NCBI GenBank assembly: GCA_028714695.1
Contig: JAQTLX010000002.1
Coordinates: forward strand, 62,001 to 126,000
Length of the DNA stretch: 64,000 bases
Direction: 5' to 3'
DNA from: Ignavibacteria bacterium
Lineage (GTDB): Bacteria > Bacteroidota > Ignavibacteria > Tepidaquicellales > Tepidaquicellaceae
Part shown: one piece after another, positions 1 to 31,688 of the stretch
Layout: the number at the start of each line of letters is the position of its first letter
Numbering within the stretch: the first letter of the stretch is position 1
The notes under the pieces: model-generated
Databases searched by the model: none
Seen by the model: the letters and a program-made list of their open reading frames with translations, nothing else
Told to the model about the DNA's origin: nothing
Program-made: the position numbers and the translations under genes

Positions 1-119
1 TATCTCATAAATCCCATGACAAGAACGGCAAACGCTGCGATTAAGCCCGCAATTACGGTAAGAAAGGAAATTAATCTCATCATGGAATATTCTGTGTTTT
101 CAAGAAAAAATTTTAGCAT
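1..119 (-). CDS. Small membrane protein downstream of phage connector (partial, runs off window)
   Basis: Reading the minus strand from an ATG at 119 gives an open frame to the window edge, about 39 codons. A short charged N-terminus (MLKFFLENTEYSMMR) is followed by one hydrophobic membrane segment rich in I, A, V and L. It lies 10 nt after the connector gene on the same strand, so it probably belongs to the phage-derived operon. Small membrane proteins in late phage operons are often holins or tail-region accessory proteins, but nothing visible proves either. The 3' end is missing. Confidence 0.5.
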   Translation of the reverse strand, partial: MLKFFLENTEYSMMRLISFLTVIAGLIAAFAVLVMGFMR

Positions 120-129
120 ATATGTTATT

Positions 130-756
130 TTAAATTTTAACCGATAAATATTTTTCAAGTATGGAATCGTAATTTTCGTCTTTATATGTGAACGAATACT
201 TAGTCTCGCTGCCTGAGTCTTTTTTGAGTATGTCCATGCGTTCCAGACCGATTCTCCGAGTCAGATTTTCATCGCCGCAATACTGAAAACTTTTTAGAAA
301 TGATTCTGCTGACATCATCAATGCAACCCATTTCAAATCAGGAGGTAATTCGTTTATCGGGTCATTTGCATTTTCGATATATCCTGCGAAATATTTTATT
401 CTGATATTGGAGTTTCCTGCAGGGAGTGTGAATCCGTTTAATAGGATAATTTTACCGCTGTCCTGTTCGCAGAATAGGTTTTCTTCAACCGGTTTTCCTC
501 CGAACAGATCTGCGCTGAAAGTACCCGTTTCTTCTCTTACCATAACGGAATCTACTTTCTCTACTGGATAGTTCGATAATCTTATAATATTCTCGTTCTT
601 GCCGCTGAGTATTTCATATATTCTCGAATAACTTAGTTTCCTTTTGCATAGATTGTTTATTCTGGCAGTTGTCATATCAATGATTTTGCGAAGGAAATTA
701 TCCTGGGAAGTATCCTTTATCCTGAGGAAATATTTTAAATCATCTATATTTATCAT
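130..756 (-). CDS. Phage head-tail connector (gp6-like) protein
   Basis: This 208-residue protein follows the capsid gene, the usual place of the gp6/DnaX-type head-tail connector in HK97-like phages. The N-terminal part is helical (IDDLKYFLRI, then DNFLRKIIDMTTARINNLC). A beta region ends in NSNIRIKYFAGYI, and a helix follows starting ELPPDLKWVALMMSAESFLKS. This layout of helices around a 'YxAGY' turn and a 'P.DL..A.....A' helix is typical of that connector family. The protein would form the ring under the portal that joins head and tail. It lacks a signal peptide and shows no damage. A hairpin separates it from the capsid gene, so it may be expressed at a lower level. Confidence 0.7.
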   Translation of the reverse strand: MINIDDLKYFLRIKDTSQDNFLRKIIDMTTARINNLCKRKLSYSRIYEILSGKNENIIRLSNYPVEKVDSVMVREETGTFSADLFGGKPVEENLFCEQDSGKIILLNGFTLPAGNSNIRIKYFAGYIENANDPINELPPDLKWVALMMSAESFLKSFQYCGDENLTRRIGLERMDILKKDSGSETKYSFTYKDENYDSILEKYLSVKI

Positions 757-786
757 TTTTATGTGTTTTAAATTCTAAATTTTATA

Positions 787-809
787 AAGAGGGAGGAATC
801 CTCCCTCTT
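787..809 (-). terminator. Strong hairpin between capsid and connector genes
   Basis: An 11-bp perfect inverted repeat, AAGAGGGAGGA / TCCTCCCTCTT, has a single-base centre. On the minus strand it sits 35 nt after the capsid stop codon and is followed by TTTATAAAATTT. It could be an intrinsic (partial) terminator or an mRNA 3'-end stabiliser that raises capsid message over the downstream connector message. Confidence 0.7.
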
Positions 810-843
810 ATTTGTTTATTCATTGCGGTATATTCTTCAAAAA

Positions 844-2535
844 CTATTCTACCGCCGTTTTCAGAACGGAAAGCGCAATCGGGTATGTGAATTTCACATC
901 GAATGAAGCATTGAAATTCAAACCTACGAGTCCGGATTGCCACAGATTGACGTTCTGAGTTCCCATCTGAACCGTAGCATCTTTGCTGAAATCTATCGTC
1001 AGATTATTTCTTAATCCGATTGCCATATAACTCAAATCACCGAATGCTAAAAATGCCCTGTCTGTTTCGGATTCGCTCAATGAGTAACAGGCATCCGATA
1101 ATTCGACCGGATATCCTTCAAGTATCATTTCTTTCCTGTCCTGCGGGCTGAGAACGTACTCGGAATTAGGCGCGTATTTCAGGGATTTTATCAATCCGTA
1201 AATGGTTCTGTTCATGTACCATTTTGAATTTTTCAGAGTATGCGATGGTACTGAAGAAACCGCTTCGATAAGATCATCATATGTTAAACTGTTGAAATCG
1301 GTGCCTGTTATTTCCATAACTTTTGCGCCGATGCCGTTTGTGAGCAATCCGTCGATATTTCCCGGAATACCCCTGAATGCGGCAGTATCTATTGTGTATG
1401 ACATAATCTGAGCGGCAAGATTTGTGACGAATCCCATGACATCAAATGCTTCATCTTCAAGCAGTTGCTTCGAGAACAGGACTATAAAACCGCCGTCCTT
1501 TCTTCTAAGAATTACCTGTGCGAAAGACGGGTTCGAAACGGGTTTTACCGTGCCTTCACTTACAAATGACCATGTAGGAAGCGTGTCGAGTTTAGGTATC
1601 ACAAGTTCGCGTCTTGTCATATTGTATATCGTTGCGTTTCGCATCGCTACACCGCCGGATTTTACGAGTGACATGATTCTGTCGTTCCATTCCTGAGGGA
1701 CCAAATAACCTCCGGCAGTGCCTGTAGATTCATTCAGGAAATCCCTGTAATTCACGGGCAGTAATTCCGGTTTACCATAAACGATTGACTTAAGAAAATT
1801 CCTTCCGTCCTGCACGGTCTTGCTTTCTTTATTAGCCGTATCTCTGAATCCTTCAGAGGGAATTTGCGTCGAAGTCAGATTTCCGATGTCCGCTATCTCC
1901 TTCTTTACAATTTCAGCGGCAACTTTTCTTGAAATTGCTTCAACTTTGTTTTCGTCGATTAATTCGACATTTGTGTTTTCATCCATTTTGTTTTTCCTTT
2001 CCTTGTCTGGATTTTTGATTGTGGGTTTTTGATTATTGTTATTATCAGGGAGCATTTCTTTGAGATGTACTTCCCTGAGTTCTTTTAAAATAAGATTAAT
2101 GCTGTCGGGATTTGCCGGTACGGGAACTGATGAATATTCTATTAATTCCCATTCGCTAACATAACTTACATCCTTTCCGTTTATTGATTTCCTTTCCGGA
2201 GGCGATTTCGGAATGAATCCGATTGACCATGCGTTCAGGAATCCTTCCTTATTAAGCCTGTAAAGTTCTTTTCCTGCCTGTGTATCAGCGAATTTAGTGA
2301 TTGCTTTAATTCCGAAATCGTCGGGGATAAGCGAAATGTTTTTTCCGATTACAAGATTTCTGGAATCATGGCAGAAAAGCACAACGGGGTTTTTTCTGTA
2401 GTTTGAATCGTCCATTCCATGCGGGTTTATTACTTCGCCGTATCTGTCAGGAGTCGATGTGGAGATGTAATGTTCAATTGTCATTTCGTTGTCGTTAAAC
2501 GACTTGACGGTGTTTTCAAATGTTTTGTAATTCAT
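844..2535 (-). CDS. HK97-family prohead protease fused to major capsid protein
   Basis: One 563-residue frame carries two phage domains. Residues 1-160 match the S78 prohead protease: candidate catalytic residues are H56 (VVLFCHDSRN), S104 (NAWSIGF) and E133 (WELIEYSSVPVPANPDS). Residues 160-245 are charged and low in complexity, like the delta/scaffold region. Residues 245-563 match the HK97-fold capsid, beginning near GTAGGYLVPQEW and including the E-loop and P-domain region. The protease would clear the scaffold during head maturation. Fused protease-capsid genes are known in some phages, while many HK97-like phages and RcGTA keep them separate. Met184 is preceded by a good ribosome site, so capsid may also be made alone. 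The portal gene lies 24 nt upstream. The gene looks intact. Confidence 0.88.
   Translation of the reverse strand: MNYKTFENTVKSFNDNEMTIEHYISTSTPDRYGEVINPHGMDDSNYRKNPVVLFCHDSRNLVIGKNISLIPDDFGIKAITKFADTQAGKELYRLNKEGFLNAWSIGFIPKSPPERKSINGKDVSYVSEWELIEYSSVPVPANPDSINLILKELREVHLKEMLPDNNNNQKPTIKNPDKERKNKMDENTNVELIDENKVEAISRKVAAEIVKKEIADIGNLTSTQIPSEGFRDTANKESKTVQDGRNFLKSIVYGKPELLPVNYRDFLNESTGTAGGYLVPQEWNDRIMSLVKSGGVAMRNATIYNMTRRELVIPKLDTLPTWSFVSEGTVKPVSNPSFAQVILRRKDGGFIVLFSKQLLEDEAFDVMGFVTNLAAQIMSYTIDTAAFRGIPGNIDGLLTNGIGAKVMEITGTDFNSLTYDDLIEAVSSVPSHTLKNSKWYMNRTIYGLIKSLKYAPNSEYVLSPQDRKEMILEGYPVELSDACYSLSESETDRAFLAFGDLSYMAIGLRNNLTIDFSKDATVQMGTQNVNLWQSGLVGLNFNASFDVKFTYPIALSVLKTAVE
1984..2004 (-). promoter_or_regulatory. 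Internal Shine-Dalgarno and in-frame ATG inside the protease-capsid gene
   Basis: On the minus strand AAGGAAAGG is followed after nine bases (AAAAACAAA) by an in-frame ATG at 1986 (residue 184, MDENTNVEL). Translation from here would give a 380-residue scaffold-capsid polypeptide without the protease, a simple way to make capsid in excess over protease. Confidence 0.5.
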
Positions 2536-2559
2536 ACTGGTTAGTTAAATGTTTAAGAT

Positions 2560-3702
2560 TTATTCGTTATTTGAGAAACCTTCTATTTCTCTTAATTCCT
2601 CGGTAGTCGCAATGCCGTATTTACTGTATATTTCAATTGCCTGCAATTGAAGTTCCCGGTCAACTTCAAATTCGTATTCCATTGTAATCTGCAAATCCTC
2701 ATCCTTATAATTATCATTAAGAAAGATGTTGAGTTTCGACTCGATGCAAATCTTTGCGAATGGCTTGATGACATAATCATTGAATATCTTCATGGATTCC
2801 CTTGCAGTTGCTCTGTTTACCTCCTCCGTTATGCCCAGGATTATCTTGGGTACACGGAACATTCCGAGTATTTCATCACGTATCATTTTTCTTGACGGTA
2901 GTATCTCAACGTCTTTCGGATATGCCTGATACGGCTTTGCTTTTATTCCTCCCTCAAGAATAATTGTCTTGCCGGCATTTTCGGCTCCTTCATACTGGTC
3001 TTTGAATTCATTTCGAAGTCTCTCGAACACATTGTCAGTAAGAGTCTTATCCGATTCCAGAAGCATACCTACAGCCGCGTCGTTTTTATAGAAATTTCTT
3101 TGATAAAGATTTTGGAGGAAATCTATTTCCTGTGTATAATTGAACCCGGATATTATTGATTTGCCGAGAAAACTATTATCCGGGTCCGGGATAAGAAAAT
3201 GAATTATATCTCGTTTATTATACTCAATGCTTGTTCTTCCGTTAAAGTAAATATATTTCTCGATGTGAGACATATCGGGATTCAGTTTTATCCTCACGGA
3301 TTTCGAGGGCAAGTGATAAAGCCCCGCAGGTTTGCCGTTATTTGCTCTGTGGATATACAGATACGAATTTCCGTAAAGGTCAAGAGATGAAGAAACCTTG
3401 TGCAGAAGTTCTTTGAAAGCATGTCCGCGTTTGTTAGGTCCTTTGATTAAATCAAGAAAAGGATGATCCGTAATTTCTTTCCGGAACTTTCCGTCACCGG
3501 TAGATTTGTATAGCAGAATATTGGCTTTGGAAACATTCTCTGCGCGAGTATTGATGCATGCATAAGCGTATGATTTATAATTATCGAATGTGCTGAGAAA
3601 ATTTAAACCGAGAGTACTGCCGCTGCTGCCCGAGAAAAATTTTGAATTGTTTTTGTTCTCGTTTTTCTCTCTGCCGAAAATTCTATTTAATATATTTTTC
3701 AT
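2560..3702 (-). CDS. Phage portal protein (HK97 family)
   Basis: The protein has 380 residues, close to the usual length of HK97-type portals. Diagnostic stretches are YAYACINTRAENVSKA near the N-terminus, DLYGNSYLYIHR (the 'GNAY' segment), YNKRDIIHFLIPDPD, LQNLYQRNFYKNDAAVGMLLE and EILGMFRVPKIILGITEEVN, ending with the helical crown-side region. The portal is the dodecameric vertex ring through which terminase pumps DNA. It is the first gene of the left phage block; protease-capsid and connector follow on the same strand. Its upstream region shares motifs with the region upstream of the terminase block. The frame is undamaged. Confidence 0.9.
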   Translation of the reverse strand: MKNILNRIFGREKNENKNNSKFFSGSSGSTLGLNFLSTFDNYKSYAYACINTRAENVSKANILLYKSTGDGKFRKEITDHPFLDLIKGPNKRGHAFKELLHKVSSSLDLYGNSYLYIHRANNGKPAGLYHLPSKSVRIKLNPDMSHIEKYIYFNGRTSIEYNKRDIIHFLIPDPDNSFLGKSIISGFNYTQEIDFLQNLYQRNFYKNDAAVGMLLESDKTLTDNVFERLRNEFKDQYEGAENAGKTIILEGGIKAKPYQAYPKDVEILPSRKMIRDEILGMFRVPKIILGITEEVNRATARESMKIFNDYVIKPFAKICIESKLNIFLNDNYKDEDLQITMEYEFEVDRELQLQAIEIYSKYGIATTEELREIEGFSNNE

Positions 3703-3758
3703 AATGGTGGATTAAAATTTATTACCATACAAAATTAAGGGATGTATGCCGAAATTAT

Positions 3759-3800
3759 TCAATAAATGACCACAGGCACATCTAAATACATGTTATTTAG
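3759..3800 (-). promoter_or_regulatory. Shared upstream motif of the portal operon
   Basis: On the minus strand this region reads CTAAATAACATGT (3800-3788), a spacer, then GTGGTCATTTATTGA (3773-3759), ending 57 nt before the portal start. The 15-bp box is identical to one 46 nt upstream of the terminase gene, and the CTAAATA(A)CATGT box is also shared. CTAAATAACATGTATTTAG (3782-3800) is close to a palindrome, as expected for a dimeric regulator. Which part is promoter and which operator cannot be told by eye. Confidence 0.6.
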
Positions 3801-3978
3801 TTATTAATCGATGGGTTGTGTTCGGTCGGAATTTATACTTCTTGAATTTGGGTTCGTAACGCATTACCTAATATCTTATAAAAACATCACTTATCAGTAA
3901 AAATACCTTGTTAATAAAAATAATACTTATTAGATTTTATTTAATTCCAATCAAAAAGCATATAATAATGAGAATATC

Positions 3979-5235
3979 ATGAAAAAATTCTTATTTGTGT
4001 TTGTCGCGATTTTCATTTCTTCAATTTCTTTTTCACAATCAAGTTGGCAAGTGGTTACGGTTTCTTTACCTGGGTTCTGGCTGGAAGCAATTCAGATGAC
4101 ATCGGCAAATACAGGATATGCCTGCGGTTGTTATCCAAATATTTCTTCCGGCGGTTTTATGAAAACTACTAACGGCGGTTTAAACTGGCAGTTCACTTAT
4201 AAACCGTCTCATAATGTAGATGACATCAGTTTCTTAAATGATTTGACAGGTTACGCGATTGAATATACAACTATACCCGGTTATTACCACGGTGGTATTT
4301 ATAAAACAACCGACGGAGCGGTCAGTTGGGTGTGTCAGGACAGTGTTGAGAACGGTAATTTCTTCAAAATAAAATTTTATGATTTAAATACGGGCTTGGT
4401 TGCAGGGAAATACGGCTCTGCATATTTTACTTCCAACGGCGGTGTAAATTGGCTTAATGTCAATAGTGGTTCGAACGGCTGGATGGAACCGCAAACAATA
4501 TGGTGTCTTGATGCAAACACATGGCTTGTTGGTGACGGTCAGTTATTGAATAAAACTACTAACCGCGGCGTAAACTGGATTATAAATGACTCAGTCCCTG
4601 CAAGTTCTATATATTTTTTCAATAACTCAACAGGAATTACGACCGGAGGCAATGGATGTATTTATAAAACGACAAACTCCGGTGGTAATTGGATTAGGAT
4701 TAATAACAGCCTTAACGGCTGGTTACTTTCTTTGATATTTACAGATCAGAATACAGGATATTGCTGCAGATATGGCAGTCCGTATATATATAAAACAACT
4801 GACGGCGGATATAATTGGACTGAACAATTGATTTATCCAAATAATATTTTGTCTGCTCTGCATTTTCTAAATAACAATACCGGATTTGCTGCCGGTTCGA
4901 GCGGCAGAATTTTCAAAACTACAAACGGCGGCTCTGTATTCGTAAGCAATATATCAGGTGAGGTTCCGGACAAATTTGATCTGGGACAGAACTACCCGAA
5001 CCCGTTTAATCAATCATCAATTATCAATCTTCAATGTTCAATGAAAGGCATGGTGACATTGAAAGTATTTGACATATCGGGTAGGGAAGTGCAGTCTCTT
5101 GTAAATGAAACTCTTAGTCCCGGAACATATCAGGTGCGGTTCGACGGTTCCGGATTATCCAGCGGTATTTATTATTACAAACTCACGGTCGATAATAAGC
5201 CGATAGCAATTAAAAAAATGGTGATGATAAAATAA
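3979..5235 (+). CDS. T9SS-secreted YCF48/BNR-like beta-propeller protein
   Basis: The 418-residue protein starts with a signal peptide (MKKFLFVFVAIFISSISFSQ). It then has about seven repeats with the pattern 'D.NTGYA.G..G.I.KTTNGG.NW', typical of YCF48/BNR-type propeller blades. The C-terminus is a type A T9SS sorting domain: GQNYPNPFNQSSIINLQ, VFDISGREV, FDGSGLSSGIYYYKL and a closing KKMVMIK. It should be exported by Sec, cross the outer membrane by T9SS and be surface-attached or released. The substrate or partner is unknown. A terminator follows at 5263. Confidence 0.85.
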   Translation: MKKFLFVFVAIFISSISFSQSSWQVVTVSLPGFWLEAIQMTSANTGYACGCYPNISSGGFMKTTNGGLNWQFTYKPSHNVDDISFLNDLTGYAIEYTTIPGYYHGGIYKTTDGAVSWVCQDSVENGNFFKIKFYDLNTGLVAGKYGSAYFTSNGGVNWLNVNSGSNGWMEPQTIWCLDANTWLVGDGQLLNKTTNRGVNWIINDSVPASSIYFFNNSTGITTGGNGCIYKTTNSGGNWIRINNSLNGWLLSLIFTDQNTGYCCRYGSPYIYKTTDGGYNWTEQLIYPNNILSALHFLNNNTGFAAGSSGRIFKTTNGGSVFVSNISGEVPDKFDLGQNYPNPFNQSSIINLQCSMKGMVTLKVFDISGREVQSLVNETLSPGTYQVRFDGSGLSSGIYYYKLTVDNKPIAIKKMVMIK

Positions 5236-5262
5236 TTACTAATTATTAATTGAAACAAAGCA

Positions 5263-5281
5263 GCCCGCAGGATTTGCGGGC
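5263..5281 (+). terminator. Intrinsic terminator
   Basis: GCCCGC / GCGGGC stem with a seven-base loop, followed by a T-rich run. It lies 27 nt after the stop of the plus-strand T9SS gene and between convergent genes. Confidence 0.7.
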
Positions 5282-5325
5282 TTCTTCGTTTATTGTATTA
5301 TGTTATGAGATTTATGTTCCAAGAC

Positions 5326-8300
5326 TTATTTGATAAGAACCATTTTGTTAATCAGTGATTTCGAAACGTCCTTTGAGTCAATTACCATTCTGCAGAAATA
5401 TGTGCCGCTCGAATAATTTGCCGCATCGAATTTATATGTGTAATAGCCGGGCACGAGTATTTCGTTTACAAGTGTTTTTATTTCGCGTCCTGTTATGTCA
5501 TAAATGATTAACTTTATTTTGCTTTCTGCGGATATATTGACGTCTATGTTTGTTACTGGATTGAACGGATTCGGATAGTTCTGTGATAATTTAAATTCTT
5601 TCGGAGTCGATATTTCAACGTCCGATGTAAGATTGTGATATTCGAAATTGCCGTTATTGTCTATTTGTTTGAGTCTGTACTGATATTTACCTGTGTTTAG
5701 TTTTCTGTCTTCGAATGTGTAAGTCGTAGGCGTCGTTTTTGTTCCGTTACCTTTAACGTATCCGGTTTTTGCCCATGTGCCTGCTCCCGTTTTTCTCTGT
5801 ATTTCAAAACCGTCATTATTTGTCTCGCTTGCGGTAATCCATTTTAGATTCACGTCTCTTCCGGAAACATTAGAAATAAATGATGACATTGAGACGGGAA
5901 GTTGTCCCTGTTGGCCTCCGGATATTGCGCTGAATCCTGTTACAGTGCCCGTCAATCTGTGATTGAAAGCATCTGCCTGATTCATTAAAAACCATCCCTG
6001 ACCCGCGTCATATTTGCTTGCCCACATGTTGTTTTCGTTTCCTGTTACGTCAGAGGATACGTACTGGCAGGTTACACTGCATGAAAAACTTGAGATACCC
6101 GATTGTGAAACTGTCCAGTATCTGTTTAAATAATCCGTTGAACTTGTATTATTCGGGTGCTTCGTCTCGGATAAGTTTACACCCGCATAGGCAGATGAAA
6201 ATGTTCCGCTTGTGAAATTCAGCGTTATCGGCGTATATTCGAAATCGGATATGTCGCCTATTGGATACGTAAACGAACCTGTTCCTGAAAATACTTTTCG
6301 CAATTGACCTGTACCTGACGCGATTATCATATTTGTTCCAGAAGGTGTTCCGCCTATAGAGGCGTTTGCACCAATTGTAAGGTTGCTTATTCCGAGAATA
6401 AAAAATCCGTTAGTTAAATTTAATTGATTTGAGACAGTGAAGTCACAATTTGAATTTACTCCCGCACTGTTATTCACTGTTAAATTGTACACCGTATAAC
6501 TACCGAATGCACCTGAAGAAATAGTCTGTGCAGTGGTGCCTCCGAAAATCAAAGTTGAATTTAAAGCATCGGATTTTATCTTAGCGCCGTTTGTAAGCGA
6601 TATGTCGCCTGTGATTGTAAGCGATTTGCCGTTGACATCAAGTATATATGTTGACTGTGAATTTATAACGCTTGCAACAGTCCTGTCCTGATCCAGAACG
6701 CAGCTATTGACCGGTGCGTTATCAAATACTACGCTTGAACCTGCGCCCGGAACCATATTGCATAACCAGTTGCTCGAAGTGTTGAAATCAGTACTTGTAG
6801 TTCCTTTCCAGATAAACCCCTCAAGAGCGCCCATTCTGGGTGTTGCACCTCTTGTTTTGCTTTCGAAGTCAGTCGTTAATCCTGCAATATTAATTCCGGC
6901 AAAATTAGCCGTTGGTAACAGACCGCTGTATGTAAAATTTGTAGTGTTTACATACGCCGGATTTGTATTCAAACTGTTTACATCCTGAGATGTTGCAGAT
7001 TGCCATGCAGCCAGGTTAGTTTTATTTGCTGAACAATACCCTAAAACACCTCCTGTACCGCCTGCATAATAATCATTGTAATCGCATGTCAGATTTGAAT
7101 TATCCTTTAAGTATATGGCGTAATGAGAACCTGAGCCGCCTGAGTTTGTTCTCGAATTTGAAAATATGTTGTTGCGTATGTTTTTTGCGTAATCAGTATA
7201 ATTATTATAAAAAGCATATGAACTTTGGTTGCCGCTTGCCCCCGTACCGCCTATATAAACAGTATTGAAGTAAACGAGCGCGCCAGAATAAACATTTATG
7301 CCTTTGAATTTAAGATTTGCAAGACTCGCACCCGCATTATCGTATCCGAGATAAATAATATTATTCCTTATTGTTCCGCAGTTAGTTGCATGATAAGAAT
7401 AAATGCCGTCGACTTCTGTACCCGAGCCGGTCGTTTTTAAATTCTTTATGAAATTCTTTTCTATCGTTGGGTTTGATACGCCCGAGTATATACCGTATAT
7501 ATTTGCCGGTCCGGATATATAATCAATCGTGTTTCCGCTTGCGGTCAAACCGCTTGTCCCAAAATACATACCGTAAACATCACCCGCAGAAGATGTGGAA
7601 GAAATATTTTTAACAATCGAATTTGAAACTGTCGTTGTAATATTTGAGGTCATATTCATGCCGTTTGTTCCTCCGGTAACGGAACCTGAACGCGTTATAT
7701 TTTGGACTGTATTGCCGCTGCAGGTGGGAGTAGTTGCCGCGGAAGTATATACACATATGCCGTCAAAAATTCTTATGTTGCCGCTTACATTTATACTGTT
7801 TGCAGTAGTTGTACTTCCGATAGTATTATTGTCTAAATTATTCAGAGCATGTGCGCCGTCCAGTTCAATTATTTCTGCATCGAAATTTTGTGTCCCGGTT
7901 ATATTCATACCGCTTATCGTGTTGCCGGTGCATTTGTCAATATTGACGGTACTCGAATATCCCGTGCATATTCCATATACTAATGAAAAACTTCCGGTAT
8001 TATTTACCGAGATATTTCCTGTCAAGTCCGTTCTTCCGATATTATTGTTCATTATATCGACGTATCCCATGCCTACCCATATTCCGCTGAACCGCGGTGA
8101 CATGGAGTTGGAACTGCCTGTTATATTTGATGATGAGAAACTTATATTTTGTATATAATTTCCGCTGATTGTCGATTTGTTTACCGTTGCCACGTCCATT
8201 AATTCAATAGCAACGAATCGGTTTATATCACCTGAGTATGTCATCGCCGTACCGCCGCAACTTGCGGATGTACCTCCGATATAATTACCCGATATCGTGT

Positions 8301-10725
8301 AACCGTCTCCCGTGCGTATATGAATGGGGGATATACATGCAGCACTTGAAACGGATACTGATGAACCCTGATAAAAACTGTTGTTTGTTATTGTCCAGAG
8401 ACTTGCACTGCCGTAGTAAAGATAAATTCCTGCATGCCTGTCAATTACCAAAGTACCTGCCCCGCCTACAAAATCATGTATGGTACAATGATCGACGGTA
8501 TTGAGTGTATTTCCATTCGAACTGTTATTGCTTCCTGCAACAATACACCGGGATGGTTTATTCGAACCCGACGGTCCGATATCGCAATAAGAAATAAGGT
8601 TGTTATTATTTGACCCCGCATCAAATGTTATAACACCGTCTGTATATGTTGTTGTCGATGGGTTTGAACCCTTTAATGTGCAATTTTTGACCGTGTTATA
8701 AGTTGCTCCCGCGCCGAATTTTATTGCACTTGAAGATGTACCTGTATTTGTATTTTCAAATTTCAGACTGTTGCCTCCGGTATTCAAACCGTCTATGGTA
8801 ACATAATCCGCTCCGTTTAAACTTACCAATGCTCCCGCTATACTGCCTGTAACTGATTTTGAAGTTCCTCCCTGCGGTCTGATAAGGATGGAAGTATAAC
8901 TTGCCGAACCGCTTCCGCTGTAATTTAATACGGCGGATGAAGTTTCGGTTGTATTCCCAATAATGCTTAATACTATAGCGCCTTTATGTGTACCCGCATT
9001 AATAGCATCAAAGGCGGCTTTTAATGTTGTAAAGTTAGCGGTGGTTGTACCCAGAGTCGCCGTCAAATTTATATTTGTTGTTGCTGCTTGTGTTAAGACA
9101 GTAACAACGTTGGAATTTACGCTAGAGCCCGCAGCATTGACCGAACGTACTCTGTAATAATACGTTGTGCTTGCCGATAAACCCGTAACAGTATAATTAA
9201 TCACGTTACCGACATCAAAATTATTGTATGAACCTACAAATGAAGCAAATGTTGAACTTGTCGATACGTCAATTTTATAAGTTGTTGCTGTTACCGATGC
9301 CCAATTTGCAGTAAATGATGTTGAAAGTATATTGGAAGCATAAGTAATAACAGGCGGTACAGGCAATCCTGTGCTTACAATATTAGAACTCATGCTTGTG
9401 TTGCTTGCGTTTGTTGCTCTTACTCTATAATAGTAAGTCACTCCCGACGTCAGCCCTGTTACAGAATAAGTTGTTACGTTACCAACGTCAAGGTTACTGT
9501 ATCCGGTTACGCATGCCTGAAAATAAAAATCGGTTGCGACATCAATTTTATATGATGTTGTTCCGCCAACGGAACCCCAGTTGGCAGAAAAAGAAGAACT
9601 CGTTTTGTTTGTGGCGTCTGTAGCAACCGGTGCTGAAAGTCCGCCTACGCTAATTATATTTGAACTGAAACTCTGTCCGTTTGAATTTGCCGCTCTTACT
9701 CTGTAGAAATATGCTATGCCCGCAGATAGTCCCGTTACGGATTTTGATGTAACATATCCGACATCAAGATTATTATAACCCGTTACAAATGTAGTAAAGT
9801 TTGCATCCGTTGAGACGTCAAGTTTATATGAAGTTGTATTGTCAACCGCATTCCAGTTTGCTGTGAAAGATGTGTTATTATAATTTGTTCCCGCCGTTGC
9901 CGTCGGAGTTCCGGGAGCGCTTGAATTAATCTGACCTGATACGGCAAGAATAATTGTTTTTCCCGTACCGGACTCATTCTTTGTAATTGTAATGCTTTTT
10001 ATAAGTTTTCCCAAATCTGCTCCTGATAAAGCAAGTGTGCAGTCATATAATCTCGGATTACTTGCATCGCCGTCAAACTGGTCGTATGTTTCACCGCTGC
10101 CGTCGGGAGTCCTGTTAACACGCCCTATTCCAAGTATTGCATAATTTGAACCGCCGTACCAATCGGCAACTGTAAAAGTATAAGACGAATTACTCGTTCC
10201 GTCGGTAAAATTTACCGTAACATTGAATGTGGAAGAACCCTGTCCGCTGGATGCAAGAATTGACAAAGCGCTGTAACAGCCCGGTGTGGTAAAAGTTAAT
10301 GTACCTGTAGAGTTAACGCCTGCCAGTCTTAAAACATTATTCCCCGTATAATTTGCCAGTTGATATCTTATATTAGTATTACTGGCGCTTATGATAAATC
10401 CATCATTGGTAAGACCGTAAGGCGGAGCGCCTGAAGGGTTATAGTCTCCCCGGAAATTCTTAGCGTACATAACGTGACTCGCGCCGTTGTAATTAGACGA
10501 ATCAAATGTAATAGTGGTTGTTGCATTAGCCTGATGGTTGGATCCTGTACCAACACCCTCTGCTATTACATCCTGATTAAATCCTGAAACAGGAATTACC
10601 TGATATTGCTGAGCAAATATTCCGGAGGATATAAAGAACACAAAAATAAACGAGAGAATAATTTGAGTTGTTCCGTGCAAATTATCTCTGCTCTTGTCCA
10701 AATCTTGTAAGTTAACTTTTCTCAT
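5326..10725 (-). CDS. Giant T9SS-secreted protein with fibronectin III and parallel beta-helix repeats
   Basis: This 1799-residue protein has a long N-terminal region before a hydrophobic export segment (IILSFIFVFFISSGIFAQ, about 22-39). Residues 40-270 form a beta-rich domain. Three fibronectin type III modules follow (about 270-545), each with 'SFTANW..V...T.YK.DVS' and 'GL.A...YYYRVR..N'. Residues 550-1280 contain many right-handed beta-helix turns (GNYI.N, GNTI, KNNIF). Then come a domain with repeated 'L.LTNG' turns, a region ending KGNGTKTTPTTYTFEDRKLNTGKYQYRLKQID that precedes many sorting domains, and the type A T9SS signal (NYPNPFNPVTNIDV ... NKMVLIK). It is probably a cell-surface adhesin or polysaccharide-binding protein; no catalytic site is evident. 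Confidence 0.82.
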   Translation of the reverse strand: MRKVNLQDLDKSRDNLHGTTQIILSFIFVFFISSGIFAQQYQVIPVSGFNQDVIAEGVGTGSNHQANATTTITFDSSNYNGASHVMYAKNFRGDYNPSGAPPYGLTNDGFIISASNTNIRYQLANYTGNNVLRLAGVNSTGTLTFTTPGCYSALSILASSGQGSSTFNVTVNFTDGTSNSSYTFTVADWYGGSNYAILGIGRVNRTPDGSGETYDQFDGDASNPRLYDCTLALSGADLGKLIKSITITKNESGTGKTIILAVSGQINSSAPGTPTATAGTNYNNTSFTANWNAVDNTTSYKLDVSTDANFTTFVTGYNNLDVGYVTSKSVTGLSAGIAYFYRVRAANSNGQSFSSNIISVGGLSAPVATDATNKTSSSFSANWGSVGGTTSYKIDVATDFYFQACVTGYSNLDVGNVTTYSVTGLTSGVTYYYRVRATNASNTSMSSNIVSTGLPVPPVITYASNILSTSFTANWASVTATTYKIDVSTSSTFASFVGSYNNFDVGNVINYTVTGLSASTTYYYRVRSVNAAGSSVNSNVVTVLTQAATTNINLTATLGTTTANFTTLKAAFDAINAGTHKGAIVLSIIGNTTETSSAVLNYSGSGSASYTSILIRPQGGTSKSVTGSIAGALVSLNGADYVTIDGLNTGGNSLKFENTNTGTSSSAIKFGAGATYNTVKNCTLKGSNPSTTTYTDGVITFDAGSNNNNLISYCDIGPSGSNKPSRCIVAGSNNSSNGNTLNTVDHCTIHDFVGGAGTLVIDRHAGIYLYYGSASLWTITNNSFYQGSSVSVSSAACISPIHIRTGDGYTISGNYIGGTSASCGGTAMTYSGDINRFVAIELMDVATVNKSTISGNYIQNISFSSSNITGSSNSMSPRFSGIWVGMGYVDIMNNNIGRTDLTGNISVNNTGSFSLVYGICTGYSSTVNIDKCTGNTISGMNITGTQNFDAEIIELDGAHALNNLDNNTIGSTTTANSINVSGNIRIFDGICVYTSAATTPTCSGNTVQNITRSGSVTGGTNGMNMTSNITTTVSNSIVKNISSTSSAGDVYGMYFGTSGLTASGNTIDYISGPANIYGIYSGVSNPTIEKNFIKNLKTTGSGTEVDGIYSYHATNCGTIRNNIIYLGYDNAGASLANLKFKGINVYSGALVYFNTVYIGGTGASGNQSSYAFYNNYTDYAKNIRNNIFSNSRTNSGGSGSHYAIYLKDNSNLTCDYNDYYAGGTGGVLGYCSANKTNLAAWQSATSQDVNSLNTNPAYVNTTNFTYSGLLPTANFAGINIAGLTTDFESKTRGATPRMGALEGFIWKGTTSTDFNTSSNWLCNMVPGAGSSVVFDNAPVNSCVLDQDRTVASVINSQSTYILDVNGKSLTITGDISLTNGAKIKSDALNSTLIFGGTTAQTISSGAFGSYTVYNLTVNNSAGVNSNCDFTVSNQLNLTNGFFILGISNLTIGANASIGGTPSGTNMIIASGTGQLRKVFSGTGSFTYPIGDISDFEYTPITLNFTSGTFSSAYAGVNLSETKHPNNTSSTDYLNRYWTVSQSGISSFSCSVTCQYVSSDVTGNENNMWASKYDAGQGWFLMNQADAFNHRLTGTVTGFSAISGGQQGQLPVSMSSFISNVSGRDVNLKWITASETNNDGFEIQRKTGAGTWAKTGYVKGNGTKTTPTTYTFEDRKLNTGKYQYRLKQIDNNGNFEYHNLTSDVEISTPKEFKLSQNYPNPFNPVTNIDVNISAESKIKLIIYDITGREIKTLVNEILVPGYYTYKFDAANYSSGTYFCRMVIDSKDVSKSLINKMVLIK

Positions 10726-11073
10726 AACGTATATTAGAATTTGAATATAAAAATCCTTTTAAAACATCCTTCGGGATGTCTAACAAAATCCGTGTTGTTA
10801 CCATTTTCAAATATTACTATGTAAATGAGGTTGTTGATTGAGTCTTTTCAAATATTGTGCCATAGTTGAATGACCAACTTTGTTTAAAAAATAACTATTT
10901 ATTTATTATATCTGTCTCAATTTGAGAATAATTCTCATTTTTTTTCATTTCACTTATTTCATACAATTGAAGATATAATTATGATATTTGAAGGCATTTC
11001 GTAAGAGTTTGGCAAAACCGGACATTGATTTTAAGCATATTATTACTCCGTTTTAATTTTTATTTTATAGTAT
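10726..11073. other. Divergent intergenic region without a gene
   Basis: This AT-rich 348-bp stretch separates divergent genes. It holds a small hairpin with a TTCG loop (10764-10779) in the leader of the minus-strand gene and the Fur-type palindrome at 10923-10937. No open frame looks coding. Confidence 0.6.
10923..10937. promoter_or_regulatory. Fur-family-type 7-1-7 palindrome
   Basis: TGAGAAT-A-ATTCTCA is a perfect 7-1-7 inverted repeat, the architecture bound by Fur, PerR and Zur dimers (classical Fur core TGATAATnATTATCA). It lies 136 bp upstream of the membrane/NTPase fusion gene and 198 bp upstream of the divergent T9SS gene. Confidence 0.45.
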
Positions 11074-12783
11074 ATGATTCAAAATTCAAGTGAAGTTAAT
11101 AGAAATAAAATAATCACAGACCGATGGATAAGAGCGTCGGTGCTCGGCAGTATATGGGCATCCACCGAAATTATTGCCGGAAATTTTCTTCATAATTTGA
11201 GAATTCCTTTTACCGGAGAGATACTTACATTTTTCGCCGTGTTTTTTCTTACGGCAGCAAGTGTCAGATGGAAAGTTAAAGGCATAATCTGGCGTGCCGG
11301 GATAATTTGCGCTCTGATGAAATTTTTCAGCCCCGGGGTTGCCGTTTTCGGTCCTATGATAGGTATCATATCGGAATCACTGGTTCTGGAATTCGGAATA
11401 CGCCTGCTGGGCTTGAATCTTGCCGGATTTATTCTCGGAGGCACTCTTGCAGTTTGTCTTCCGCTCGTTCAGAAAATTGTAAACTATCTGATAATGTACG
11501 GATGGAATCTTCTTATTGTTTTCGATAAGACGGCAGAGGTTATGATAAAACTGTTCGGATTGCAGGGGTTTAAATCTGTTCATCTTCTGATTATACTTTT
11601 TTCTATAAATGCATCACTCGGACTCATTGCTGCAATATCGGGATTTATAGCAGGAAAGAAAAAATCAGTTAAGGATTTTCAGTTTGAAATGAAAAATGCC
11701 GATGATAATCTTTATAATAACAATCCGGACGCAAATCCAAAGAGCATCATCATATCAATGATAATAAATGTTGTACTCACAATATCTTTGCTGTTCATAA
11801 TAAAATATGATATTCTAATTTCCGGAATTCTAATATTTGCTTTTATTGCTTATTCGCTGTTTAGATATAAAAATACCGCAAGGCTGTTCCGCAATTATAA
11901 ATTCTGGTTACAGATAATATTCTTTACATCTCTTTCGGGAATAATATTTGCTTATTTTTCCGGATTCGGACTATTGAAAGGCGTACTAACAGGAATTGAA
12001 ATGCTGGAAAGAGTATTGCTGCTTACCGTTGGGTTCGCTTTAATAAGTATTGAACTCCGAAAGCCCGAGTCAGTGAATTTCATTAGAAAAAAACTCAGCC
12101 CCAATCTGTCTCTGGCTCTGAATTCGGCTTTTAGCGCCGTACCGGAAATTATAAGTACATCGAAAGGTATATTCTCTCTGCTTCGTCCGTCTGTTTTTAT
12201 TCAGGAACTTACTTCCATGATGGATTATTGGTATGAAAAATTCAAACTTGATATGCAAAGCAATAAAATTATTATTATTACCGGGAGTCAGGGCGCGGGA
12301 AAAAGTACTTTGCTAAAGAGAATGAATGAAAAGTTTGTTGAAGAAAACAAAAATGTGACAGGGCTGATATCTGAAGTAGTTTATAATAACGGCGGGAGAA
12401 CTGGTTATGATGTCACGTTCCTTCCGACAGGTGAAAAGTATAATTTATGCAGGACGGATGGAAACAATCTCTTAAAACTCGGGAATTTCTTTTTTGACTC
12501 GAAAGTGTTTGATGATTTAAATGAAAGAATTATTAAATCTATTTCGGAATATTCGGATATCTTAATACTCGATGAAATCGGACTGCTCGAAAAAAGTAAG
12601 CAAGGCTGGTTTCCGATTATGAATATGATAAATCAACCCGGGAAAAAGCCGCTGCTAATAGCCGCAGTTCGGAAAAATATTCTCGAGGATATAAAATTGT
12701 TTTTTGGAAATCCGGAAATCCCTGTGTATGATCTCGATGTCGAAAGTCCCGACGGCATTTTCAAAGATTTAATTTCCAATTAA
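11074..12783 (+). CDS. Membrane (ECF-transporter-like) domain fused to THEP1-family NTPase
   Basis: The first 200 residues form a polytopic membrane domain (WASTEIIAGNFLHNLRIPFTGEILTFFAVFFLTAASVR and following helices) that resembles ECF substrate-binding components. After a hydrophilic linker comes a second membrane block (about 225-330) and a region (LERVLLLTVGFALISIELRKPESVNF) somewhat like the transmembrane T component. Residues about 398-569 are a nucleoside triphosphatase of the THEP1 (DUF265) type: Walker A GSQGAGKST at 404-412, the following GLISEVVYNNGGRTGYDV segment, and Walker B DILILDEIGLLE near 500. No standard ABC signature (LSGGQ) is seen. Energised vitamin or metal uptake is plausible but inferred. 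A Fur-type palindrome lies upstream. Confidence 0.6.
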   Translation: MIQNSSEVNRNKIITDRWIRASVLGSIWASTEIIAGNFLHNLRIPFTGEILTFFAVFFLTAASVRWKVKGIIWRAGIICALMKFFSPGVAVFGPMIGIISESLVLEFGIRLLGLNLAGFILGGTLAVCLPLVQKIVNYLIMYGWNLLIVFDKTAEVMIKLFGLQGFKSVHLLIILFSINASLGLIAAISGFIAGKKKSVKDFQFEMKNADDNLYNNNPDANPKSIIISMIINVVLTISLLFIIKYDILISGILIFAFIAYSLFRYKNTARLFRNYKFWLQIIFFTSLSGIIFAYFSGFGLLKGVLTGIEMLERVLLLTVGFALISIELRKPESVNFIRKKLSPNLSLALNSAFSAVPEIISTSKGIFSLLRPSVFIQELTSMMDYWYEKFKLDMQSNKIIIITGSQGAGKSTLLKRMNEKFVEENKNVTGLISEVVYNNGGRTGYDVTFLPTGEKYNLCRTDGNNLLKLGNFFFDSKVFDDLNERIIKSISEYSDILILDEIGLLEKSKQGWFPIMNMINQPGKKPLLIAAVRKNILEDIKLFFGNPEIPVYDLDVESPDGIFKDLISN

Positions 12784-12842
12784 AATATTTGCATAAACAA
12801 TTCGGTGTCATTTTATTATTTTATTATAATCAATCGTCTAAT

Positions 12843-14216
12843 ATGGATACGGCATTAATAATATTATATATTCTCCTTGGTTTGTTTATAGGGTTCGTGT
12901 TTGCTTTCATTATTGCAAAATACAAATATAAATCCGAATCGAAATATTCGGATTTAGACATACAGAATTTACAAAATGAATTATCGAAGTCTCAGAACGA
13001 ACTATCAGCGTCATACAAGCAGGCTGAAATAATTGGTAAAAATCTTGATGAAATAAAAGCACAACTTGCCGCAGAAAGAGAAAAAACATATCAATTAAAT
13101 TCCGGATTATCCGTCTCAAAAACAAACAATGAGAATTTAGAAAAACGACTTGCCGAACAAAAATCCGAACTCGAGCAGCTCGAAAAAAGATTTAAAACTG
13201 AATTTGAAAATCTTGCAAACCGGATTCTTGACGAAAAAAGTCTGAAATTCACGGAGCAAAATAAATCTAATATTGACCAGATTCTTCGTCCGTTAAACGA
13301 TAAAATAAAAACATTCGAAGAAAAAGTTGATAAAGTTTATAACGAAGATATTCGCGATAGAGCAACACTTCTTCAGCAAATAAAAAGCCTTCAGGAAATG
13401 AACCTGAAAATATCGGAGGACGCAAATAATCTGACGAAGGCTCTGAAGGGCGAAAGCAAAACGCAGGGAAACTGGGGAGAGTTCATACTCGAAAGCATAC
13501 TTGAAAAATCCGGTCTTGTTAAAGACAGAGAATATTTTATGCAGGAAAGTCATATTGGAGAAGACGGCAGAAGATATCAGCCCGATGTAATTATCAAACT
13601 TCCCGATGACCGCCATATTATCATAGATTCAAAAGTCTCGCTCAAAGATTACGAAATATATTCTTCAAGCGATAACGACGAAGACAGATCAATCGCTCTT
13701 AAAAACCACATAGGTTCTATAAGAACACACATAAAAAACTTAAGTTCAAAAACCTATCAGGATTTATACGGACTGAACAGCCTTGATTTCATAGTGATGT
13801 TTATGCCTATAGAACCGGCACTTTCAGTAACTGCGCAATCTGACGTAAATATCTGGAATGAAGCATTTGAAAAAAATATTGTAATCGTAAGTCCTTCAAC
13901 TTTACTGGCCACACTTAGAACCATCTCGAATATCTGGAAACAGGAATACAGGACAAGAAACGTTATGGAGATTGCCAAAGTCGGCGGTATGATTTATGAA
14001 AAATTTGAAGGGGCAATACAAAATCTTATTTCTGTCGGTAAAAAACTTGACGATGCGAAATCCGTTTACGAAGAATCCATGAAAAAGATGTATACAGGCA
14101 AAGGCAATCTGGTAGGGCAGTTTGAGAAACTCAAGGAACTCGGTGCAAAGACAAATAAATCACTTCCCGCGGAATTGCTTGAAAGAGCAGGCGATGATTT
14201 AATCGATAATGAATAA
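12843..14216 (+). CDS. rmuC: DNA recombination protein RmuC
   Basis: The 457-residue protein has an N-terminal membrane anchor (TALIILYILLGLFIGFVFAFIIA), a long coiled coil (about 30-150) and the RmuC core: KGESKTQGNWGEFILESILEKSGL, YQPDVIIKLPDDRHIIIDSKVSLKDYE, VMFMPIEPALS and SPSTLLATLRTISNIWK. The GE...E and IDSKV residues belong to its PD-(D/E)XK-like nuclease-fold core. RmuC limits inversions at short inverted repeats. I chose the ATG at 12843 because the upstream TTG at 12789 would put 18 extra residues before the anchor. The gene ends exactly where the convergent terminase gene ends, with no spacer. Confidence 0.9.
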   Translation: MDTALIILYILLGLFIGFVFAFIIAKYKYKSESKYSDLDIQNLQNELSKSQNELSASYKQAEIIGKNLDEIKAQLAAEREKTYQLNSGLSVSKTNNENLEKRLAEQKSELEQLEKRFKTEFENLANRILDEKSLKFTEQNKSNIDQILRPLNDKIKTFEEKVDKVYNEDIRDRATLLQQIKSLQEMNLKISEDANNLTKALKGESKTQGNWGEFILESILEKSGLVKDREYFMQESHIGEDGRRYQPDVIIKLPDDRHIIIDSKVSLKDYEIYSSSDNDEDRSIALKNHIGSIRTHIKNLSSKTYQDLYGLNSLDFIVMFMPIEPALSVTAQSDVNIWNEAFEKNIVIVSPSTLLATLRTISNIWKQEYRTRNVMEIAKVGGMIYEKFEGAIQNLISVGKKLDDAKSVYEESMKKMYTGKGNLVGQFEKLKELGAKTNKSLPAELLERAGDDLIDNE

Positions 14217-15413
14217 CTAAATTCTTCTTATTCTCATCTCATTTCTATCCCTGCAATGCGTATACAGTGCGTATCGCAGTGCGTCAAGCGCGTGGTCGTT
14301 GAATTTCACGGGTTCATCGTAAATATTCCCGTTCCTGTCCGTCTTATATGAATACGAAAGAACTTCCTTGTTCAAATTCTGATTCTCCGGCTTGCTGAAT
14401 ATTTTTTGTGATTTCAGAAAATCAATTCCGTCTTTTACATTCTTCAAAGCGGAGTGAACATTGAAGCCTGCTGTCTCCAATTCTTTGATTCTGTCAGGTT
14501 CTGCCGGGTCGCAGAAAATCATGTCGGTTTTATTTTTTATTGTTTTGTTCATAAGATTTATAAGTTCCGAGTTCGTCAATTTATTGCCGTATATCAGTTC
14601 CTCAGTGTAATAACATCCGTCCTTTATTTTAACTTTAATAAGCGCCGTAGGATTGTTATAGCCGAAATCAAGACCGTAAATCGTTTCATCATAATGAACA
14701 GGGTATTTTTGCAGTATCTCAAATGGTTTGAATATAATATTCTTCAGTGTGCCCCAGTTGCCGAGCGCATATATATCATAGTATTCTTTATCTTCATTCT
14801 TAAGATTGTTGAGTACATCAATGTAAGAATTATCCAGATAGGGATTGTCTTTGAAAGTAGTCTTAACTGTCAATGAATTATTAAGATGAGTGTTATGCAG
14901 CCAGTGATTTGCATCGACAGGGTTGAATGTCATTATTATCTGTTTGTAATTCGACGTCCTGTTCCTTAAACGTAAATCAATTTGCACAAAATCTTTTTTC
15001 GCGAGTTCGGTTGCTTCTTCTATCCATATTGAAGTTATTCCGTGTATTGATTTTAGTTTTTCCCTGTCATCGACCCCCACACTTATTATTGTGTTTGAAT
15101 TAAGTTTGTTCGTTATTGAAAGATCGGATTCCCTGAATCTGAATATAGAACTCAGGTTGGAATCTGAGATAAGAGTTTTAAGGAGACTGAACTGCGAATT
15201 CCTGATTGTCTTTGCAACCTTCCGGATTAAAAGAATCTTGTGATGATTCTCATACAGCATCCTGAATAATATTTTCTGTGCGGCAAAATAACTCTTGCCG
15301 GAGCCCGCTCCGCCGTACAGAATAAAATACCTCGATTCGTTTTCAAGATATTTTCTGTAGCATATATTTATTGAACTGTCGTCAAATTTATTTCTGGGAT
15401 ATGATGCTTCCAT
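14217..15413 (-). CDS. Phage terminase large subunit (PBSX/HK97-like)
   Basis: The 398-residue protein has both terminase halves. The ATPase has Walker A GGAGSGKS at 34-41 and Walker B IWIEEATE near 129-136, with the catalytic Glu present. A coupling motif MTFNPVD is near 161. The nuclease has the RNase H-like acidic residues D249 (YGLDFGYNNP), D302 (FCDPAEPDR) and D373/D377 (NDHALDALRYAL). It would cut and pump DNA into the capsid through the portal. It starts immediately after the small-subunit stop (TAA directly followed by ATG). The gene that should follow, portal, is 10.5 kb away. All key residues are retained, so function looks selected for. Confidence 0.92.
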   Translation of the reverse strand: MEASYPRNKFDDSSINICYRKYLENESRYFILYGGAGSGKSYFAAQKILFRMLYENHHKILLIRKVAKTIRNSQFSLLKTLISDSNLSSIFRFRESDLSITNKLNSNTIISVGVDDREKLKSIHGITSIWIEEATELAKKDFVQIDLRLRNRTSNYKQIIMTFNPVDANHWLHNTHLNNSLTVKTTFKDNPYLDNSYIDVLNNLKNEDKEYYDIYALGNWGTLKNIIFKPFEILQKYPVHYDETIYGLDFGYNNPTALIKVKIKDGCYYTEELIYGNKLTNSELINLMNKTIKNKTDMIFCDPAEPDRIKELETAGFNVHSALKNVKDGIDFLKSQKIFSKPENQNLNKEVLSYSYKTDRNGNIYDEPVKFNDHALDALRYALYTHCRDRNEMRIRRI

Positions 15414-15827
15414 TTATGAATTTGTAGTTAAACGTACAACCATTTCTTTCGGGAACAAACTTTCCGGTTCAGGCTCGCTGTCTTTCCATCCGAATCTTGT
15501 TCTCATTGTGAATATCCATACGGATGAATTAAATTTATTCCGCCCCGTGGATTTGTTTTCCCCTTTGCCGTCAATATGCGCTGCATCCACACCTAATTTT
15601 TCCCAGTATAATCTGGATTGACGATGTGCATTTTCAATCAATTGCCTAAGTGTATCATTATTATTTTGTTCATCAAGTTTATTGGCTTGCTCAAGAATAT
15701 CTTTGTAATCCATTTCAGGAAAAGACTTTGCGCTGTAACCTTTTTTCAGATGTTCGCAAAAATGTTTTATCAGCAGTATAGTTTTATCCACACTGTTATC
15801 GACGAAATTATTTTTTGCTTTTTTCAT
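15414..15827 (-). CDS. Putative phage terminase small subunit
   Basis: The 137-residue protein is directly upstream of and contiguous with the large terminase gene. The C-terminal half (RLYWEKLGVDAAHIDGKGE, FNSSVWIFTMRTRFGWKDSEPE) matches the small-terminase-like proteins of Bacteroidota phages, where 'WIF.M.NRFGW' is a frequent ending. The N-terminal region is helical (DKTILLIKHFCEHLKKGYSAKSFPEM) and could form the DNA-recognition helix-turn-helix. It would choose the DNA to be packaged; in gene transfer agents this subunit is often altered to permit non-specific packaging. Confidence 0.7.
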   Translation of the reverse strand: MKKAKNNFVDNSVDKTILLIKHFCEHLKKGYSAKSFPEMDYKDILEQANKLDEQNNNDTLRQLIENAHRQSRLYWEKLGVDAAHIDGKGENKSTGRNKFNSSVWIFTMRTRFGWKDSEPEPESLFPKEMVVRLTTNS

Positions 15828-15872
15828 AATTGTTTTTTACTTCAAAAATAATAAAAATATGAAGTACCGGAA

Positions 15873-15922
15873 TCAATAAATGACCACGCATGCATATTAA
15901 CTATTGATAAACATGTATTTAG
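15873..15922 (-). promoter_or_regulatory. Shared upstream motif of the terminase operon
   Basis: On the minus strand CTAAATACATGT (15922-15911) precedes GTGGTCATTTATTGA (15887-15873), which ends 46 nt before the small terminase start. The 15-bp box is identical to the one before the portal gene; the other box differs by one base insertion, and the spacing between boxes differs by about 8 nt, close to one helical turn. Confidence 0.6.
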
Positions 15923-30956: not shown

Positions 30957-31688
30957 GAAAAATCTATTTATCCTCTATCTAAATTTTATCTAAAAAGAAT
31001 TATCTGTTCCCAAATTTCTGCATTGACCGCAAATATCAAATACCATATATTATTATGGCACGTATAATTGTTCTTTGACATGACATGAAAATATTTACTG
31101 CAACAAAGCGGAATACAAATATTTTTTCGGCGGATTTCCAAAACAAAATGATACCTGAAATGATACCTGAGGTATCATTTGTAAGCAAATAAAAATCAAT
31201 AATTTATCATAACTTAACAGCGTTAATGATACCAAAATGATACCTTTTTGAAAAAAACCGCGAATTGTCTGTTTTTGTGCTGAAAATCAACTTTTTCACT
31301 TATACATGGTATCATCTGGTATCATTAAATATTGTCAGCCTGAATTCTAAGTAGTGTCAACTCATGTGAAATATTAAGTGCATGTTTTTCATCTGTTATC
31401 GCTGATAATAATTTTATTTGACATTTTCTTGCAATCTGCCTGAACTCGATATTCTCGCAGCGATATAATCAAAAACCTCGAGGCAGGCCTTGCAAATTTC
31501 AAAGAAATATTAACGTAACTGATTGGGAAATGATTATTGTTTTAATAGATTAGGCTCATAATAAGTCCCGCTATTTTTTAATAAATATTATCAATAAATT
31601 ACTAATATCAAATTGTCAATCATCACATGTCTTCTTATTCTGGAATTGAAAAATCAGAATAAGTATATTTATCTAAAATTATTTTAAT
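30957..31688. other. Gene-free region closing the accessory island
   Basis: These 732 bp contain no convincing gene. The first half carries the ATGATACC repeat cluster (31149-31325). The remainder is AT-rich and includes short frames with stop codons; nothing was identifiable in it. Confidence 0.6.
31149..31325. repeat. Cluster of seven ATGATACC motifs in both orientations
   Basis: ATGATACC occurs at 31149, 31161, 31226 and 31237, and its complement GGTATCAT at 31172, 31308 and 31318. Neighbours are 10-12 bp apart, one helical turn. Two copies form a perfect 11-bp-arm palindrome, AAATGATACCT-G-AGGTATCATTT read in two halves. The pattern looks like a multi-site protein-binding array (operator, iteron or recombination accessory sites). 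Confidence 0.6.

Follow-up and report, generated by a model that had tools for sequence, protein, structure and literature searches.

Why does a bacterial chromosome keep intact phage genes for heads, DNA packaging and lysis in two separate pieces, with host genes between them? We addressed this question for a 64,000-nucleotide stretch of an Ignavibacteria bacterium (the window; G000:C2:62001-126000 in the 3.85-Mb draft of the source genome, G000), in which locus A comprises the portal, protease-capsid, connector and lysis genes and locus B the genes for the small and large terminase subunits (TerS and TerL). The DNA shows what the genes encode, that their active sites are intact, that the loci are dispersed, of vertical descent and under purifying selection, that they share a promoter motif and that the endolysin has been exchanged. 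Together these features suggest a domesticated, vertically inherited, phage-derived packaging and lysis system, a viriform resembling a gene transfer agent (GTA), that occupies at least two loci in one Ignavibacteria family and would be switched jointly by one trans-acting regulator. We assign this reading a probability of about two in three. Window proteins were called by Pfam and PHROGs profile matches and compared with 98 related genomes, one of them complete (G028); 29 genomes of the family were scored for both loci. The features concerned are:

C2:60804-61244, in line with the connector, left of the window: M15-type endolysin (PHROG endolysin 3.7e-8)
C2:61246-61851, in line with the connector, left of the window: spanin-like protein
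1..158, minus strand: in-window part of a holin-like transmembrane protein (full open reading frame C2:61871-62158, extending left of the window)
130..756, minus strand: gp6-like head-tail connector, or adaptor (PF05135 1.1e-6, phrog_442 3.8e-14)
844..2535, minus strand: prohead protease (S78) fused to an HK97-fold major capsid protein (PF04586 9.8e-16, PF05065 2.5e-32)
2560..3702, minus strand: portal protein (Pfam PF04860 6.7e-57)
3730..3771, minus strand: putative locus A promoter motif, GGTCATTTATTGA ... TAATTTTG, 42 nt from motif start to −7 box end
3979..14216: host-like genes between the loci (BNR/Por-secreted protein, 1799-aa surface protein, NTPase, RmuC)
14217..15413, minus strand: TerL, large terminase (PF04466, Terminase_3, 4.9e-47; PF17288, Terminase_3C, 9.8e-10)
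15414..15827, minus strand: TerS, small terminase candidate, by its position upstream of TerL and homologues in the same place
15843..15885, minus strand: putative locus B promoter motif, GGTCATTTATTGA ... TATTTTTG, 43 nt from motif start to −7 box end

The strongest evidence is that, in most genomes tested, the two loci have a putative promoter motif in common, which the decay of relics does not explain. In G000 and two relatives, G001 and G002, GGTCATTT lies upstream of both loci, mostly followed by nTYGA and then by a TAnnTTTG box, which we take to be the Bacteroidota-type −7 box consensus. The distance from motif start to box end was 42 nt in each of the locus A promoters of these genomes and 43 nt in each of their locus B promoters. 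Other lineages carry different motifs that again match between A and B (AATCATTATATTTGA in G028, TTTTCTTAATATTTGAC in G019, AATGTCAATATTTTTCAT in G011 and CCGGCAATATTGAAATCA in G009). Scored against the upstream regions of other genes, this match was significant in seven of nine genomes, with a combined p of 2e-6 (one genome per genus). With one mismatch allowed, promoters A and B were the only matches in 480 kb of G028; they likewise accounted for the only two copies in 59 kb of G011 and in 26 kb of G019, and the five copies in 98 kb of G009 all precede TerS, portal, protease-capsid or one of two lysis units. Motifs that match at separate loci and have diverged between lineages are the trace that a trans-acting regulator under selection would leave, and drifting relics would not. 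In genus g16 the motif overlaps a probable −33 promoter element, so that part of the A/B match may be core promoter there. In G000, a predicted LexA-like repressor gene (L004:1108-1734), located some 17 kb to the left of locus A, might be a candidate regulator.

Apart from the two loci, we observed a family of intergenic non-coding elements with at least eight members and dense ATGATACC / GGTATCAT repeats, some with ATGAGCCAT, at window positions 31148-31325 and at L360:11511-11668, L362:10025-10202, L374:914-1190, L376:7035-7202, L380:6309-6475, L386:15960-16150 and L388:11708-11877. Four elements have a GGTCATTT...TAnnTTTG promoter nearby, as at loci A and B. Rfam gave no match for the one element tested.

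The genes behind these promoters in G000 are intact. The packaging and capsid frames had been described beforehand as intact and on one strand with their catalytic residues kept; open reading frames, Pfam and PHROGs agree, and Walker A (34–41), D249, D302 and D373 of TerL as well as H56, S104 and E133 of the protease were invariant in family-wide comparison. TerL has a broader set of phage relatives, with 51% identity in Thermoanaerobacterium phage THSA-485A, and the best phage match to the locus A capsid is only about 27% identical. Profile comparison gave the portal of RcGTA as the nearest solved structure to the locus A portal, and the RcGTA capsid was among the matches. The TerS candidate had no family match; its structure model is all-helical, and in nine other loci a homologue immediately precedes TerL.

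Extension to the left, which the preliminary description had called for in search of tail, baseplate and lysis genes, yielded the lysis genes directly beside the connector, so that its statement that no lysis gene is near holds within the window only. No tail gene was recognised in the 20 kb left of the window. The claimed lack of integrase and replication genes was borne out there and around the loci, where neither the linked integrase and replication genes of an ordinary temperate prophage nor an att site completing one was found. Farther left, some 5 kb past the endolysin, C2:54807-55906 contains an HNH gene and encodes a phage-type protein (phrog_10048).

The endolysin is of M15 type in most genomes and of Amidase_2 type in G028, G018:C167 and the IMG/VR record L178, whereas in G009 a different amidase-like open reading frame, homologous to the endolysin in G018:C69, adjoins the spanin-like gene. 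By sequence comparison, the enzyme has been replaced between genomes while the lysis position was kept, as expected were lysis under selection. The spanin-like gene, whose structure model is of low confidence (pLDDT, the predicted local distance difference test, 61), is present in 10 of the 12 TerL-positive genomes, with only one weak match elsewhere (G017).

The loci are physically dispersed. In the window they are separated by about 10.5 kb of host genes, as previously described, with 3979–14216 host-like by Pfam. Close homologues of portal and TerL (49–81% identity) were found, among the 98 relatives, in the same family only and mostly on separate contigs. In G028, portal (C1:634142) and TerL (C1:96936) lie 537 kb apart on one 2.4-Mb contig, G011 has locus A and locus B on different contigs, and G009 has both within 12 kb with order and strand scrambled. 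Among the 29 family genomes, ten have both loci, two have TerL only (G018 and G026), none has portal only and 17 have neither, G025 with its very distant versions being scored as neither; the co-occurrence corresponds to a Fisher p of 3e-6 with kinship uncorrected. Those G025 versions, at about 40% identity, are also split: L085 (G025:C18) carries TerS-TerL beside repressor-like, replication-like and RusA-like genes, and L086 (G025:C343) a portal-protease-capsid-connector block with host genes on its flanks. The metagenome-assembled genome G009 further contains many TerL relatives (L075, L095, L073, L074, L089, L090, L094), among them degraded copies and phage-like early regions ending in lysis genes, HNH and TerL.

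The flanks are conserved as well. The order glmS-terL-rmuC is common to G000, G001 and G002, and since G001 and G002 repeat it through to the NTPase and also have a BNR-type gene beside the portal, an assembly join between unrelated contigs, which had been raised as a refutation, is unlikely. In G008, from another genus, rmuC adjoins TerS, and further flanks are common to G008, G011 and G023; the distance between TerL and glmS is about 20 kb in G011 and reaches 45 kb in G028. Absence from close relatives, likewise named in advance as a refutation, was found in part: the loci are present in the genus of G000, though lost in two of its five genomes, and G003 of that genus has rmuC and glmS near each other without a terminase and lacks the close form of locus A too. 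About 25 kb from locus B of G028 we noted genes predicted to encode a Cas9-like protein of 1394 aa and relatives of Cas1 and Cas2 (L327:14041-19515).

The trees of TerL and of the portal agree in their clades and keep each of the genera g1, g8 and g16 together, and the two distance matrices correlate (r = 0.79, p = 5e-5), also in a subset of seven genomes from six genera (r = 0.57, p = 0.009). In seven genomes, TerL and portal distances each also follow those of GlmS (correlations with p = 0.015 and 0.006), the misjoined GlmS of G008 being excluded. Synonymous divergence (dS) was saturated in most genome pairs; between G001 and G002 the ratio of non-synonymous to synonymous change (dN/dS) was 0.05 for protease-capsid and 0.058 for portal. 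TerL protein identity, 71–73%, is close to the 74–75% of the neighbouring RmuC. These data support vertical inheritance of both loci under strong purifying selection, in agreement with the vertical maintenance in an Ignavibacteria-like lineage that had been proposed for this DNA.

From these features we infer co-expression of the loci, particle formation, host origin of the packaged DNA and release by lysis. In such a scheme, a signal would cause some cells to transcribe locus A and locus B through the lineage-specific promoter motif; capsids would form around the portal, TerL would pump cell DNA into them, the connector would close the head, and the holin/endolysin set would lyse the cell and free DNA-filled heads. 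Recipients might take up the DNA by competence, through an unrecognised short tail or through a borrowed tail. Being hundreds of kb apart in G028, the system's own loci are likely not fully packaged. We tentatively put forward a narrower version, in which DNA-filled heads of a tailless GTA would be released by the dedicated lysis cassette and enter recipients by another route such as competence, and in which scattered loci would be joined only by a promoter code that co-evolves, lineage by lineage, with the regulator reading it.

Several observations weigh against a regulated GTA-like system. Six tail queries gave no match in G028, G011, G001, G002, G009, G019, G023 or G026: PF10145, PF04984, phrog_28, a hub-like protein from a Mu-like phage, and profiles built for a tail hub (A5) and for a small conserved tail protein (A6). 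A tail that is highly diverged or of podovirus type could be missed by them. TerL occurs without a detected portal in G018 and G026, portal or capsid frames are broken in the draft assemblies of G023 and G008, G001 and G002 have no TerS beside TerL, and the fold search with the TerS model returned no PDB match. The motif pairs of G008 and G023 were not significant, and motif plus box occur six times in 965 kb of G000, at A, at B and at four sites near the non-coding intergenic repeats, so that the regulon there may extend beyond the two loci.

One alternative is a conventional tailed GTA whose tail genes lie in a third locus, too divergent for the profiles used; this variant, counted inside the preferred reading, we regard as possible but doubtful. 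Tails and more than one locus are the rule among known GTAs (PMC9662315), and Faecalibacterium prausnitzii splits head from tail and lysis genes over two operons (PMC12946183). PF10145 is a weak tail test, as it misses the tape measure of a prophage in G000 itself, hence the addition of phrog_28 and hub/c55 profiles. Tail matches came from G000, G008, G018, G021 and several locus-free genomes, in phage-type tail modules, with a weak one in G025. The module in G018:C69 (L321) combines tape-measure-like, hub and fibre-like genes with an endolysin, a holin-like gene and a gene homologous to the spanin-like one; its sequence hints at either an ancestral or source phage or a tail locus, the third, kept in G018. 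This linkage speaks for a tailed system, yet no tail was found in the eight TerL-positive genomes named above, though the c55 profile matched nine family genomes, and a motif scan of 20% of G028 revealed no third operon.

The scarcity of free relatives counts in favour of the GTA-like reading. Among the IMG/VR matches listed, where rare copies may be missed, only two records carry locus A, and both look chromosomal: one is a 7-kb fragment with a host-like gene at its end, the other the flank of a Mu-like prophage. The latter, L178, had been considered a phage with locus A and a tail; this was rejected, as on the full contig locus A adjoins a Mu-like prophage that is unrelated and has a head and tail of its own, which gives no evidence for a tail of the locus A system. 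Database users should note that the viral record IMGVR_UViG_3300050581_000215 (L260, L261) is a Mu-like prophage with a bacterial-looking flank. Separately, the c19 cluster near phage genes was rejected as phage, being an AcrB-type efflux pump.

Dead prophage fragments, an old phage having broken up with pieces surviving by chance, would account for the patchy presence in the family, the degraded terL copies in G019 and G009 and the absent TerS in two genomes. We consider this unlikely, as frames and active sites have stayed intact over dS-saturated divergence with a dN/dS of about 0.05, separate loci are present or absent jointly, and their promoter motifs match.

Less likely still is a tail-stealing satellite, which would build heads itself and depend for tails on helper phages or on prophages in the same cell. 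Capsid-forming phage-inducible chromosomal islands (PICIs) carry their own head and terminase genes and no tail genes on compact, integrase-bearing mobile islands, and HNH, TerS, TerL, portal, protease, capsid and connector without a tail resemble such a set. G000 does have tailed prophages: two related ones of ordinary make-up, L083 (C2:200001-220000) and L084 (C8:122001-142000), which at C2:200-216 kb and C8:122-138 kb contain their own tape measure, tail, TerL-like, portal and terminal recombinase-like genes; their portals share no more than about 30% identity with the locus A portal. In contrast to such islands, the loci described here lack an integrase, are vertically inherited, lie more than 500 kb apart in G028 and have their own lysis genes, and the tail profiles found nothing in G028, G011, G001 or G002.

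A capsid with a role other than DNA transfer, for instance a lysis-released shell, fits the linkage of lysis and capsid genes and the domestication of HK97 shells as encapsulins, but is very improbable, since a cargo shell would need neither a portal nor a catalytically complete TerL, both of which are retained and share the promoter motif, and since the portal stands in line with the capsid gene whereas encapsulins are capsid proteins without portal and terminase.

If the reading as a GTA-like system holds, GTAs would extend to the Ignavibacteria. GTAs have been documented by experiment in a handful of lineages (PMC9662315), and the literature that we searched held no paper linking GTAs with Ignavibacteria. 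The build would be unusual: the terminase genes stand apart, the capsid genes continue directly into lysis genes, and no tail is detectable. A motif matched within a genome and diverged between lineages offers a test, by sequence only, for distinguishing relics from a dispersed phage system that has been domesticated, and it makes the regulator findable. Overall, the interpretation in the preliminary description was largely supported and in places partly so; the shared motif regulon had not been foreseen.

Measured against the definition of GTA viriforms (PMC9662315), the system has caudoviricete-derived proteins, is fully endogenised at multiple loci (537 kb apart in G028, on different contigs in G011) and is mostly vertically inherited with host co-diversification, as seen in congruent trees, the GlmS correlation and conserved flanks. 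We call it GTA-like and not a proven GTA because these three features can be judged from sequence, whereas particle, host DNA and delivery are experimental matters. RcGTA (Rhodogtaviriformidae) and CcGTA resemble it in HK97-type heads, multiple loci and vertical descent, and are controlled by a direct activator, GafA (PMC6363796). The likeness to RcGTA proposed earlier stands for head type, dispersed loci and GTA-like character and fails for the tail: RcGTA has head and tail genes, among them tail tube, tape measure and hub, in one contiguous cluster, whereas the connector here leads straight to lysis genes. Sequence similarity to RcGTA is remote, and promoter motif and host differ. BaGTA (Bartonella) and BhGTA (VSH-1, Brachyspira) also have domesticated phage modules at several places (PMC9662315), but belong to other host phyla and have reported tails, some BaGTA reports describing tailless or short-tailed particles. 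The nearest parallel is FpGTA of F. prausnitzii, with two operons and no identifiable tails (PMC12946183). Its head/packaging operon stands apart from the second operon, by about 125 kb in one strain, and the system is common to the genus (PMC12946183). Its host is a member of the Bacillota and its second operon comprises baseplate, fibre and lysis genes (PMC12946183), whereas in the Ignavibacteria no tail or fibre gene was found, the lysis genes stand with the capsid, the terminase forms a separate piece, and a motif code marks the loci.

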